Assembly (NCBI RefSeq): GCF_024498955.1 | Contig: NZ_CP093311.1 | Location: forward strand, 248,001-312,000 | Direction of reading: 5' to 3' | DNA from: Thermomonas paludicola | GTDB lineage: Bacteria > Pseudomonadota > Gammaproteobacteria > Xanthomonadales > Xanthomonadaceae | Length of the DNA: 64,000 nucleotides | Shown: piece after piece, positions 39,882 to 64,000 of the stretch | Layout: each line of letters starts with the position of its first letter | Position numbering within the stretch: position 1 is the stretch's first letter | Notes under the pieces: generated by a model | Database searches by the model: none | Told to the model about the DNA's origin: nothing | What the model saw: the letters and a program-made list of their open reading frames with translations, nothing else | Program-made: the position numbers and the translations under genes

Positions 39882-39968
39882 GCACATCCCCATGTGTGGA
39901 TGCGCCGAGAATAACGGATGCGGGTGGCGGTTCGCGTTCTTCGCTTATCCTGCAAGCAGGAGGAACCC

Positions 39969-42857
39969 ATGCCGCTGAGTCTCAATGAAATCCGCGAGCG
40001 CGCGCGCGCGTTTGCCAAGGAGTGGGCCGGGGAAACCAGCGAGCGCGCCGAGGCGCAGAGCTTCTGGAACGACTTTTTCAACGTGTTTGGCGTGAAACGC
40101 CGCAGCGTGGCGATCTACGAGCAGAAGGCAAAGCGTTTTTCCGGCAGCCAGCATGGCCGCATTGACGTGTTCTGGCCCAGGGTCATGCTGGCCGAGCACA
40201 AGAGTGCAGGCGTCGATCTGGATGCCGCATACGAACAAGCGACCGACTATTTCGCCGGCCTGACCGAAAACGAACGGCCCCAATACATTCTCGTTTCCGA
40301 TTTCCGCAGCTTCCGCCTGTACGACCTCGAAGGCGACACGATGCCGGTGGCATTTGCGCTGGCCGAGCTGCACAAGCAGATCGGGCGCTTCGGCTTCATC
40401 AGCGGCTACCAGACCCGCAGCTACAAGGAAGAAGACCCGGTCAACGTGCAGGCCGCCGAGCGCATGGGCCGGCTGCACGATGCGCTGAAGGCGGCGGGCT
40501 ACGACGGCCACGCGCTGGAACTGCTGCTGGTGCGGCTGCTGTTCTGCCTGTTCGCCGACGACACCGGCATCTTCCCGCGGCAGAGCTTCCACGAGCTCAT
40601 TGCCCAGCGCACCAGCGAGGACGGCGCCGACCTCGGGCTGTGGGTGGGGCGCATCTTCCAGGTGCTCAACACGCCGCCGGAGAAGCGCCAAACCACGCTG
40701 GACGAGCAGCTGGCGGAGCTGCCCTACGTCAACGGCCGGCTGTTCGAGGAGGTGCTTCCGCTGGCGGACTTCAACGCGCAGATGCGCGGCCTGCTGCTGG
40801 ACGCAAGCCTGCTGGACTGGAGCCGCATCAGCCCGGCCATCTTCGGCTCCATGTTCCAGTCGGTGATGGACGCCAAGGCCCGCCGCAACCTGGGCGCGCA
40901 CTACACCAGCGAAAAGAACATCCTGAAACTCATCGGCCCGCTGTTCCTGGACGGCCTGAAGGCCGAACTGGACAAGGCCGGCAACGACACACGCAAGCTG
41001 GCGCAGCTGCACAGCAAGCTGGCCACGCTGACCTTCCTCGACCCGGCCTGCGGCTGCGGCAACTTTTTGGTGATCGCCTACCGCGAGCTGCGCGCGCTGG
41101 AGCTGGAAGTGCTGACGCGCCAGTTCGCCACCCAGCAGTCGGTGCTGGCGCACGTGCAGGACCATGTGCTGGTGGACGTGGACCAGTTCCACGGCATCGA
41201 GATCGAGGAGTTCCCGGCGCAGATCGCGCAGGTGGCGATGTGGCTGATGGACCACCAGATGAACCTGCGCGTGTCCGAGCAGTTCGGCGAGAACGTGGTG
41301 CGCCTGCCGCTGAAGAAGTCCGCCACCATCGTGCATGGCAACGCGCTGCGGATCGACTGGAACGCGGTGGTGCCGGCGGAGAAGCTGCACTACATCCTGG
41401 GGAATCCGCCGTTCATTGGGCATCAGTGGCGCAATGCCGAACAGATGGCCGACATGGAGCGCATCTGGGGCAACGACGGTCGCTTCGGACGGTTGGACTA
41501 CGTGACAGCGTGGTACCGGCTGGCGACGGACTACATGAGGACGGCTCTTGATCGTCATTCCCGCGAAGGCGGGAATCCAGCTCTTGAAAACAAACGCCAG
41601 AATCAAACGCTGGATCCCCGCCTTCGCGGGGATGACGGCATCAAGGCTGCCTTCGTCTCCACCAACTCCATCTGCCAGGGCGAGCAGGTCGGAATCTTGT
41701 GGGGCAACCTGCTGGCGCGTGGTGTGCATCTGCATTTCGGTCATCGCACGTTCCAGTGGACGAATGAGGCGCGAGCGAACGCGGCAGTGCACTGCGTCAT
41801 CGTCGGTTTCGGCCTGCACGACGTTCCCGAAAAGTGGGTGTTCGAGTACGAGACGCCGAAATCGGAAGCGTTGGCGATCCGTGTGGACAACGTGAATCCG
41901 TATCTGGTCGGCGGGCCCAACGTGCTCTTGCCGTCACGAACCAAGCCGCAGCCGGGCATGCCGGAGATGTGCAAGGGTAGCCAGCCGACCGATGGCGGGC
42001 ATCTGATCCTGACCGACGATGAAAAACGCGTGCTGCTGGCAGAAGAGTCCGCAGCGGAGAAGTTCATCCGACGTTACATCGGCGGAGATGAGTTGATCAA
42101 CGGTGGCGTGCGTTGGTGTCTGTGGCTGAAGCACGCCAGTCCATCCGAGCTTGCGGCATTGCCGAAGGTGCGCGAGCGCGTCGCCAAAGTTCGCGACGCG
42201 CGCCTGAAAAGCCCTACGAAGCAAGTTCGCGACTATGCGGAGATGCCGACGTTGTTTACGCAGGATCGGCAGCCGGAAAGCACGTTTATGGCGCTTTCAG
42301 AGGTCTCATCCGAGAGCAGGCGCTACATGCCTGTTGGGTTTTTCAAAAGCGATGTGGTGCCGGCGAATACAGTGCAAATTGTGGTCGGCGCGACCGTTTT
42401 CCATTTCGGAATTATCAGCTCACGCATGCACTCCGCATGGACCGGGGTGGTCGCTGGCCGGCTTGAGAGTCGAATTCGTTACACACCATCTGTCTACAAC
42501 AACTTCCCCTGGCCCGAGCCGCTCGATGACAAGGCCCGCGCCGCCATCGAAGCCGCCGCCCAAACCGTCCTCGACGCACGCGCGCAGTTCCCTGACGCAA
42601 CGCTTGCCGACCTCTACGACCCGCTGACCATGCCGCCCGCGCTGGTCAAGGCCCACGCCGCGCTGGACAAGGCCGTGGACGCCGCCTACCTGGCCGCCGA
42701 AAAAGCCGCCGCCCGCAAACCGCCCAGACTGGACACCGACGCCGAGCGCGTGGCCTTCCTGTTCCAGCGCTACCAGGCGTTGACCAGCCTGCTGCCGGCC
42801 ACCATTCGGCCGCTTACAAGTTCTGGTAGTTCGGCCCGGAACCGCCTTCCGGGGTGA
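39969..42857 (+). CDS. MmeI-like (type IIL) restriction-modification enzyme with embedded REP pair
   Basis: A 962-residue single-chain restriction endonuclease and adenine methyltransferase. AGGAGG lies 5 bp before the ATG. The endonuclease motif is Asp66-x9-Glu76-His-Lys78, exactly the D-x9-ExK spacing of MmeI. A helical connector follows. The methyltransferase has FLDPACGCGNFLV (motif I, about 357-365) and NPPF (motif IV, about 479-482). The target-recognition domain occupies roughly residues 600-850, then a helical C-terminal region. About 31 residues (about 527-557) are encoded by two inverted REP sequences inserted in frame. The last 44 bp overlap the convergent ETF-QO gene. Recognition sequence and activity cannot be read. 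Confidence 0.9.
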   Translation: MPLSLNEIRERARAFAKEWAGETSERAEAQSFWNDFFNVFGVKRRSVAIYEQKAKRFSGSQHGRIDVFWPRVMLAEHKSAGVDLDAAYEQATDYFAGLTENERPQYILVSDFRSFRLYDLEGDTMPVAFALAELHKQIGRFGFISGYQTRSYKEEDPVNVQAAERMGRLHDALKAAGYDGHALELLLVRLLFCLFADDTGIFPRQSFHELIAQRTSEDGADLGLWVGRIFQVLNTPPEKRQTTLDEQLAELPYVNGRLFEEVLPLADFNAQMRGLLLDASLLDWSRISPAIFGSMFQSVMDAKARRNLGAHYTSEKNILKLIGPLFLDGLKAELDKAGNDTRKLAQLHSKLATLTFLDPACGCGNFLVIAYRELRALELEVLTRQFATQQSVLAHVQDHVLVDVDQFHGIEIEEFPAQIAQVAMWLMDHQMNLRVSEQFGENVVRLPLKKSATIVHGNALRIDWNAVVPAEKLHYILGNPPFIGHQWRNAEQMADMERIWGNDGRFGRLDYVTAWYRLATDYMRTALDRHSREGGNPALENKRQNQTLDPRLRGDDGIKAAFVSTNSICQGEQVGILWGNLLARGVHLHFGHRTFQWTNEARANAAVHCVIVGFGLHDVPEKWVFEYETPKSEALAIRVDNVNPYLVGGPNVLLPSRTKPQPGMPEMCKGSQPTDGGHLILTDDEKRVLLAEESAAEKFIRRYIGGDELINGGVRWCLWLKHASPSELAALPKVRERVAKVRDARLKSPTKQVRDYAEMPTLFTQDRQPESTFMALSEVSSESRRYMPVGFFKSDVVPANTVQIVVGATVFHFGIISSRMHSAWTGVVAGRLESRIRYTPSVYNNFPWPEPLDDKARAAIEAAAQTVLDARAQFPDATLADLYDPLTMPPALVKAHAALDKAVDAAYLAAEKAAARKPPRLDTDAERVAFLFQRYQALTSLLPATIRPLTSSGSSARNRLPG
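41553..41580 (+). repeat. REP element copy inside the RM gene, first arm
   Basis: CGTCATTCCCGCGAAGG followed by CGGGAATCCAG folds into a stem with a GCGAAGGC-type loop. The same sequence occurs at 58227-58253 and 58264-58290. It is translated in frame as [10 protein letters not shown] within the RM enzyme. Confidence 0.9.
41610..41637 (-). repeat. REP element copy inside the RM gene, inverted arm
   Basis: CTGGATCCCCGCC followed by TTCGCGGGGATGACG is the reverse complement of the REP consensus with one or two base changes. With the copy at 41553 it forms an inverted pair separated by 29 bp. It is translated as DPRLRGDD. Confidence 0.88.
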
Positions 42858-58226: not shown

Positions 58227-58253
58227 CGTCATTCCCGCGAAGGCGGGAATCCA
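58227..58253 (+). repeat. REP element upstream of valS, copy 1
   Basis: CGTCATTCCCGCG-AAGGCGGGAATCCA, a hairpin with a 7-bp stem. It is nearly identical to the copy at 58264 and to the arm at 41553. Confidence 0.9.
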
Positions 58254-58263
58254 GTGGATGATT

Positions 58264-58290
58264 CGTCATTCCCGCGAAGGCGGGAATCCG
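58264..58290 (+). repeat. REP element upstream of valS, copy 2
   Basis: The same 27-bp hairpin as copy 1 except for the last base, in the same orientation, 10 bp after it. A 37-bp period results. Confidence 0.9.
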
Positions 58291-63078: not shown

Positions 63079-64000
63079 ATGCCGACCATCCGCGACCGCC
63101 GCAGCTTCACCCGCGATTTGCCACCGCTGGCCGACGCCGATGCCGACGCCATCGAGCGCTTTCTGGACGCGGCGTGGGCTGAGCGGGGGCTGGCGCAGGC
63201 CACTTTGTCTGCCTACCGCAGCGATTTGCAGGCATTGGCGCGCCAGCGGCCGGGCTTGCTGGGCCTGGAACGCGATGCGCTGTTCGAGTGCCTGGCCCAG
63301 CGTGCGCGGCAGGGGTATTCGCCGCGCAGCACCGCACGGCTGCTGTCCTGTCTGCATGCTTTTTATGCGCATGCGGTGCGCGTGGGGCTGCGCAAGGAGG
63401 ATCCCGGCGCGCTGTTGCAGCCGCCGACCCTGCCGCGGCTGTTGCCCAAGGCGCTGTCCGAAGCGCAGGTGGCGGCGCTGCTGGCTGCACCCGACCTGGC
63501 GAGCGCGACAGGCGTGCGTGATCGGGCGATGTTGGAGCTGATGTATGCCTGCGGCTTGCGTGTCAGCGAGCTGGTGGGGCTGCCGGGGACTGCGGTGAAC
63601 CTGCGCCAGGGCGTGCTGCGCGTTACCGGCAAGGGCGGCCGCGAGCGGCTGGTACCGCTGGGCGAGGAGTCGCGGCATTGGCTGGAACGCTACCTGCGGG
63701 AGGCGCGCCCGGTGCTGCTTGCCGGCGTGCGCACCCCGGGCGCGGTGACGGCGATGTTCGTGAATGCCGACGGCGGGGTGCCCAGCCGGCAGGCATTCTG
63801 GGCATGGGTGAAACGCTATGCGGCGCTGGCCGGGATTGATCCGGGCAAGATCAGCCCGCACGGCTTGCGCCACAGTTTTGCCACCCATCTGCTCAATCAC
63901 GGCGCCGATTTGCGCGCCCTGCAGCTGTTGCTGGGCCACAGTTCATTGTCCACGACGCAGATTTACACCCTGGTGGCCCGCGATCGCCTGCGCAATCTGC
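63079..64000 (+). CDS. xerD: Tyrosine recombinase XerD, 3' end beyond the window
   Basis: 307 codons are visible with no stop, since the window ends inside the gene. A SAM-like N-terminal core-binding domain (ERFLDAAWAERGLAQATLSAYRSDLQAL) precedes a catalytic domain. The catalytic residues are visible: Arg in ACGLRVSELVGL, Lys in GKGGRERLVPL, HxxR in HGLRHSFATHLL, His in LLGHSSLSTT and Tyr in QIYT. XerD with XerC resolves chromosome dimers at dif. The protein appears nearly complete. Confidence 0.93.
   Translation, partial: MPTIRDRRSFTRDLPPLADADADAIERFLDAAWAERGLAQATLSAYRSDLQALARQRPGLLGLERDALFECLAQRARQGYSPRSTARLLSCLHAFYAHAVRVGLRKEDPGALLQPPTLPRLLPKALSEAQVAALLAAPDLASATGVRDRAMLELMYACGLRVSELVGLPGTAVNLRQGVLRVTGKGGRERLVPLGEESRHWLERYLREARPVLLAGVRTPGAVTAMFVNADGGVPSRQAFWAWVKRYAALAGIDPGKISPHGLRHSFATHLLNHGADLRALQLLLGHSSLSTTQIYTLVARDRLRNL

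Follow-up and report, generated by a model that had tools for sequence, protein, structure and literature searches.

The MmeI-like restriction-modification gene of Thermomonas paludicola was confirmed to carry an inverted pair of CGTC-tagged REPs, inserted in frame as judged from sequence comparison, at positions 41553-41637 of the window (the whole stretch of 64,000 nucleotides that was analysed). We consider it probable that this pair occupies a permissive turn of the methyltransferase domain, where about 29 hydrophilic residues would form a flexible loop tolerated by a working enzyme. The REP pair would have inserted in frame at the turn between the helix that follows motif IV and the next strand. 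The same turn would be filled again and again by whichever short palindromic repeats the lineage of the carrier has, because an extra 20-50 residues would be tolerated at few other sites in the MmeI-like protein. Tolerance, and not a DNA target preference, would make the hot spot, and the loop would be expected to face away from the DNA and the cofactor.

Table 1. Positions in the window of the MmeI-like gene, its motifs and the REP pair.
Feature	Position	Strand	Details and basis
MmeI-like (Type IIL) restriction-modification gene	39969..42854	+	962 aa from ATG 39969; stop codon 42855-42857; five Pfam domains, phmmer, ORF list
PD-(D/E)XK nuclease residues D66 ... E76-H-K78	40164..40202	+	Correspond to MmeI D70 ... 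E80, K82; invariant columns, 81-sequence alignment
Methyltransferase motif IV NPPF, residues 479-482	41403..41414	+	Invariant in 81 sequences
GCTCTTGAT directly 5' of REP1	41544..41552	+	Flanks of 30 REP copies compared; 41-base identical match
REP1	41553..41580	+	CGTC tag, 8-bp stem ATTCCCGC/GCGGGAAT, 4-nt loop GAAG, CCA tail; read directly
Spacer between REP1 and REP2	41581..41609	.	Close variant between the REPs of L116
REP2, inverted relative to REP1, CGTC tags outermost	41610..41637	-	Stem ATCCCCGC/GCGGGGAT, loop GAAG, CCA tail; read directly
Residues 526-556, without MmeI counterpart	41544..41636	+	phmmer gap; structure model
W597, equivalent to MmeI Trp570, the residue at the flipped adenine	41757..41759	+	Invariant in 81 sequences; correspondence read from phmmer alignment
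Specificity half, residues 483-850 (rest of methyltransferase domain and TRD), swapped between alleles	41415..42518	+	Identity profile along the protein
Second hot spot, about residue 851, TRD/C-terminal linker	42519..42533	+	Empty in the window gene, filled in 52/120 listed homologues

The open frame of the gene starts at 39918 and gives 979 aa from its first start in the list of open reading frames. The protein matched all five MmeI Pfam domains and aligned with the solved MmeI (5HR4) with an E-value of 1.1e-302 (phmmer). As described for MmeI in the structure paper (PMC4833311), five domains with nuclease and methyltransferase motifs were found in a single chain. They are the nuclease, helical spacer, gamma-class methyltransferase, TRD and C-terminal domains of a Type IIL enzyme. 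The catalytic features of this type (nuclease D-E-K, NPPF, H311 and W597) were all kept, and D66, E76, K78, H311, NPPF and W597 were invariant in an alignment of 81 sequences. According to the structure paper, D70, E80 and K82 are the catalytic nuclease residues of MmeI and Trp570 sits at the flipped adenine; the role of NPPF as motif IV was taken from the same source (PMC4833311). Unlike 5HR4, the window protein has an extra segment at the turn, and identity over the structural alignment was only 50%. An identity as BREX PglX was rejected, as the NCBIfam matches were weak (26.6 bits vs a cut-off of 900 and 20.8 bits vs 500).

The two REPs are units of 28 bases each, sited between the post-motif-IV helix and the FVSTNS strand. 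Their inverted arms reach 35 nt (41553-41587 and 41603-41637) and are 89% complementary. In the description by Di Nocera et al. (2013; PMC3733652), CGTC-1 REPs have a CGTC tag (or TGTC/CCTC), a stem of 8 bp that opens with AT, a loop of 4 nt and a CCA tail. An unpaired CGTC tag opened both units in the window, with TGTC variants elsewhere in the genome, and both 8-bp stems had AT as their first two pairs, together with the loop and tail given in Table 1. With a 25-mer REP pattern (up to 3 mismatches), 4 matches were found in the window (0.00 expected from 100 shuffles) and 50 in the whole genome of 2,717,354 bases (27 on the plus and 23 on the minus strand), compared with 0 for a backwards control of the pattern in the whole genome. 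A chance palindrome was excluded by these counts. A 100-base query around the pair gave 69 local matches (E<=0.001) in its own genome, several of which were near-full-length inverted REP pairs with 78-81% identity. Dedicated tyrosine transposases were searched for with one family model, Pfam Y1_Tnp, which gave 0 matches in the T. paludicola genome and was positive as a control in 5 of 14 genomes; a Y1 transposase of the own genome was therefore rejected as the mover of the REPs. The published CGTC-1 REPs, as presented in PMC3733652, resemble those found here in tag, stem, loop and tail, in copy number (tens), in forming inverted pairs, in including TGTC variants and copies within genes, and in lacking a dedicated transposase. 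A further two copies from this REP family, both in one orientation, were found at 58227-58290 of the window, close to where a minus-strand open frame begins; they are probably extragenic.

The phmmer alignment to 5HR4 broke into residues 1-525 and 557-945 of the query, with 526-556 unmatched. From NPPF to FVSTNS the window protein has 79 aa, compared with 50 aa in its nearest empty homologues (P0006 and P0008). The net gain is 29 residues, or 87 bases, for an element of 85 bases. In a preliminary description of the locus, two inverted REPs had been placed at 41553-41580 and 41610-41637 within an open frame, and an extragenic element had been proposed to be converted there into protein sequence. 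Both points agree with the genome-wide matches and with the comparison to MmeI and to P0006/P0008. Its prediction of an alignment gap at residues 527-557 came close to the gap at 526-556, and the homologues without a REP do read straight through, as it had said. Segments of equal length, which it had named as contrary evidence, do occur in homologues; the insertion stands nevertheless, because most of them are palindromic repeats of other kinds, which cannot be aligned with one another. An ancestral segment of the family that was lost elsewhere was likewise rejected, the inserts being mutually unalignable and of different repeat classes.

Exact insertion junctions or target duplications were resolved in none of the filled and empty pairs with DNA, whose divergence was too great for this (identity at best about 0.9 on each side). 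The sequence GCTCTTGAT also precedes a REP within an RND-type gene elsewhere in the T. paludicola genome (30 REP flanks compared). For this reason it may be part of the inserted unit, which would perhaps be slightly longer than the REP pair. In L116, another gene of the Thermomonas group whose specificity half differs, the REPs are separated by a close variant of the window spacer.

Flanking DNA was available for 30 of the 50 REP matches, and a Pfam search of 10 open frames across REPs gave no family for 5 and one family for the other 5. One of the latter, encoding RdgC (L028), was left out of the in-frame count since its REP precedes the domain. REPs lie in frame in genes for a 6-phosphogluconolactonase (L006), an RND-type protein (L016), Mfd (L020) and a UDP-sugar dehydrogenase (L024). 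At the REP, the 6-phosphogluconolactonase has 46 residues vs 18 in its solved relative 3nwp, and the UDP-sugar dehydrogenase has 46 vs 4 in 4r16. In the AcrB-type RND protein the Pfam match spans the REP, and in Mfd the REP lies between two domains. These four genes share one hydrophilic REP frame; the remaining frames are open too. At least four other genes thus look like real cases of in-frame REPs, so that in-frame REPs are general in the T. paludicola genome.

Recurrence at the turn was assessed in the best 120 of 8000 scored protein candidates, in 80 named loci of other genomes and in 30 further loci. P0012 and P0068 (of the 120), L056 and L075 (of the 80) and L120 and L136 (of the 30) were unfit for parsing by motif length and were excluded. 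By motif length, extra sequence at the helix-to-strand turn was present in 37 of the 118 parsable proteins among the best 120 listed homologues. In the alignment of these 120, inserts of at least 5 residues were found at the turn in 37 and in the linker near residue 851 in 52. Other internal sites had few (2 at 456, 6 at 746 and 3 at 856), and the remainder were near the ends. Among the named loci, the turn exceeded 53 residues in 25 of the 78 parsable ones and reached 60 in 15; the 10 below 60 aa were mostly short loops without a clear repeat. L108 was long at another place.

The inserts at the turn were mostly palindromic repeats of several unrelated families and occurred in several lineages; in many of the 22 loci inspected, the insert DNA was palindromic. 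CGTC-type peptides were found in relatives from Thermomonas, Pseudoxanthomonas and Luteimonas, and CCCTCTCC/GGGAGAGG palindromes in Thermomonas, Thiobacillus, Desulfuromonadaceae and other proteobacterial bins. TTCGAC-type palindromes were present in Rhodoferax and another betaproteobacterium. A Nitrosomonadales bin (L086) had a palindrome that, matched by eye, we take to be GTAG-like. Three of the foreign inserts were multi-copy in their own genomes, with 44 (L129), 19 (L102) and 6 (L055) matches including the own copy. For the insert of T. beijingensis, no second copy was found in its own genome (G225) at E<=0.001; 26 matches (E<=1e-5) were found in another congener (G212). This pattern fits an insert that arrived with a transferred gene, and the matches in the congener may mark the donor lineage.

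Among 190 distinct relatives, 128 had no insert, 32 had a CGTC-type, 14 a GGGAG-type, 4 an ELVE/GVEG-type and 12 another insert; these peptide classes are loose, and protein-only entries were classed with patterns written for the RHSR frame, so the frame count among them is not independent. P0023, L108 and L121 were relabelled by eye ahead of tree building. On FastTree phylogenies of the 190 relatives, at least 31 (N-terminal part), 35 (C-terminal part) and 32 (both) changes between repeat and no repeat were required, counts in which gains, losses and recombination are lumped together. Shuffled labels required about 44 changes, which indicates that the trait is partly inherited. After collapse of branches with support <0.95, 22, 22 and 27 changes remained when resolved in the fewest-change way. 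Close pairs also differed in their inserts. P0002 and L130 showed no difference in the stretches compared between residues 483 and 750, although one has a REP pair and the other a single collapsed hairpin (79 vs 60 aa, both in frame), and similar in-frame length differences were seen in P0009/P0018 and P0014/P0019. Recurrent occupation of the turn by unrelated repeat families was thus evident across the compared sequences.

In the preliminary description, the in-frame conversion had been called a rare event. This was not upheld: a rare single event is contradicted by the 37 of 118 parsable listed homologues with a filled turn and by the at least 22 changes on the trees, at least four more genes of the genome contain in-frame REPs of this family, and in-frame REPs in known proteins had been catalogued in 2013 (PMC3733652). 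According to that paper, Rickettsia palindromic elements (RPE) are in-frame palindromic repeats that serve as protein segments of likely functional genes, and RPE-4 and RPE-6 are assigned to the CGTC superfamily. The case described here differs from these in organism and gene, and in that one turn was struck repeatedly by unrelated repeat families. It is like recB of X. campestris and X. oryzae, for which different REPs at about one site in one gene were reported in different species (PMC3733652); recB concerns two species, whereas the turn holds at least three loose classes of palindromes and a GTAG-like one in several bacterial lineages. In-frame REPs are therefore a known kind of element in the published account, with one shared-site case already reported. 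Unlike in the CGTC-1 cases of that paper, the host gene is MmeI-like; the words 'restriction' and 'methyl' have 0 occurrences in its main text, and no paper joining REPs with MmeI was found in the literature library searched. As far as the searched literature reaches, two points are new: the MmeI-like host gene, and how strongly unrelated families recur at one turn.

An extragenic palindromic repeat would thereby have become a tolerated protein segment. Since the same turn was filled by unrelated repeats many times, alleles with a full, a shortened or no insert exist together within one enzyme family. With these alleles it becomes testable how CGTC REPs without a known transposase insert and shrink, and which protein sites tolerate such inserts. 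For annotation, the case advises caution, as REP-derived peptides are not always spurious.

Within the methyltransferase domain, the insert sits some 45 residues past motif IV and before the strand that leads to W597. It might therefore damage or change the enzyme, leaving for example methylation only and no cutting, or a changed target. We regard this as unlikely, because the motifs are intact, purifying selection was detected and in-frame inserts recur at the turn in full-length proteins. The dN/dS of the window gene compared with 10 congeners was 0.10-0.29 over residues 1-480 and 0.11-0.26 over residues 856-943, values that span whole branches and reach beyond the time since insertion; the middle part (558-850) was near silent-site saturation. 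Compared with L114, which also bears an insert, dN/dS was 0.098 at 96.9% nucleotide identity. The conserved parts of the gene are under purifying selection. A carrier of the REP pair, L119, had a dN/dS of 0.426 over residues 1-480, above that of the congeners, which speaks for a damaged or changed enzyme; its match (in G036) had one TAG marked inside in a first-look table.

In the AlphaFold2 model the insert was a low-confidence loop between a helix (511-533) and a strand (559-565), with pLDDT <50 at residues 534-555. The model was of moderate quality (mean pLDDT 75.3, pTM 0.59), and low confidence was not peculiar to the insert, as 13 stretches had pLDDT <50, including 478-484 with NPPF and 308-325. 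The suggestion that the insert might alter DNA binding or inactivate one activity thus found no support in the motifs, the selection analysis or the predicted loop. Of the preliminary interpretation, the in-frame conversion was retained and the rarity and possible inactivation were not. The open frame, the homologues and the selection agree with the REP pair being a predicted segment of a functional protein.

The 111-nt REP region folds at -71.8 kcal/mol, compared with -32.9 ± 3.4 kcal/mol for shuffled sequences (z = -11.3). Such a hairpin in the coding region might act as RNA, by slowing the ribosome or lowering expression of the enzyme. This is very unlikely in our view, as any inverted REP pair folds in this way and the long hairpin has not been conserved: a second arm is missing from many inserts, which are single REPs or REP remnants, and 128 of the 190 relatives are free of inserts. 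A conserved RNA hairpin was rejected on the same ground, the second arm being absent from many inserts at the turn.

Recognition domains are known to move. Identity between the window protein and P0009 of T. beijingensis was 96-100% in residues 1-480, fell to 32-70% from 483 to 850 and was 91% beyond 856, and the swap of the specificity half (41415-42518) was seen in comparison with the T. beijingensis loci L031/L114. Other pairs switched identity at about 600 or 750, with smaller swaps of the C-terminal part of the TRD. From these identity profiles, the specificity half (about 483-850) or parts of it are evidently exchanged between alleles. In L129, both hot spots carry a copy of a 107-base repeat in the same direction (G280 C11:62207-62313 and 63194-63313; 97% identical), and most of the specificity half lies between the two copies.

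Because of these direct repeats, we keep as a bold alternative that the repeats at the two hot spots are recombination handles for swapping the specificity half. The downstream breakpoint of the swap falls at the second hot spot, and inserts at the two sites co-occur: among the 151 parsable of the 190 relatives, 34 had inserts at both sites, 21 and 19 at one only and 77 at neither (odds ratio 6.6, p = 3.7e-7, uncorrected for kinship). The upstream breakpoint, however, lies at NPPF (about 480) and away from the REP turn, and empty alleles swap too. Among pairs with an agreement of 85% or more on one or both sides of the turn, the two sides disagreed in 141 of 166 pairs without inserts, more often than in pairs with inserts in both (106 of 186). 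The REP turn was accordingly rejected as a breakpoint of specificity swaps, disagreement showing no excess with inserts, and recombination handles are a highly improbable explanation compared with tolerance of the repeats at a permissive turn. A broader proposal would be that Type IIL enzymes have two docking turns, after the motif IV helix and in the TRD/C-terminal linker, which capture genomic repeats and, at the second, also whole DUF559 domains. In some genomes, near-identical direct repeats at the two turns would flank most of the specificity half, the genomic repeats supplying homology for exchanging or remodelling DNA specificity; we hold this proposal to be improbable. Whole DUF559 domains were observed beside repeat-derived peptides in the TRD/C-terminal linker of five proteins (P0019 and P0081, checked with Pfam; P0034, P0071 and P0077, from precomputed Pfam matches).
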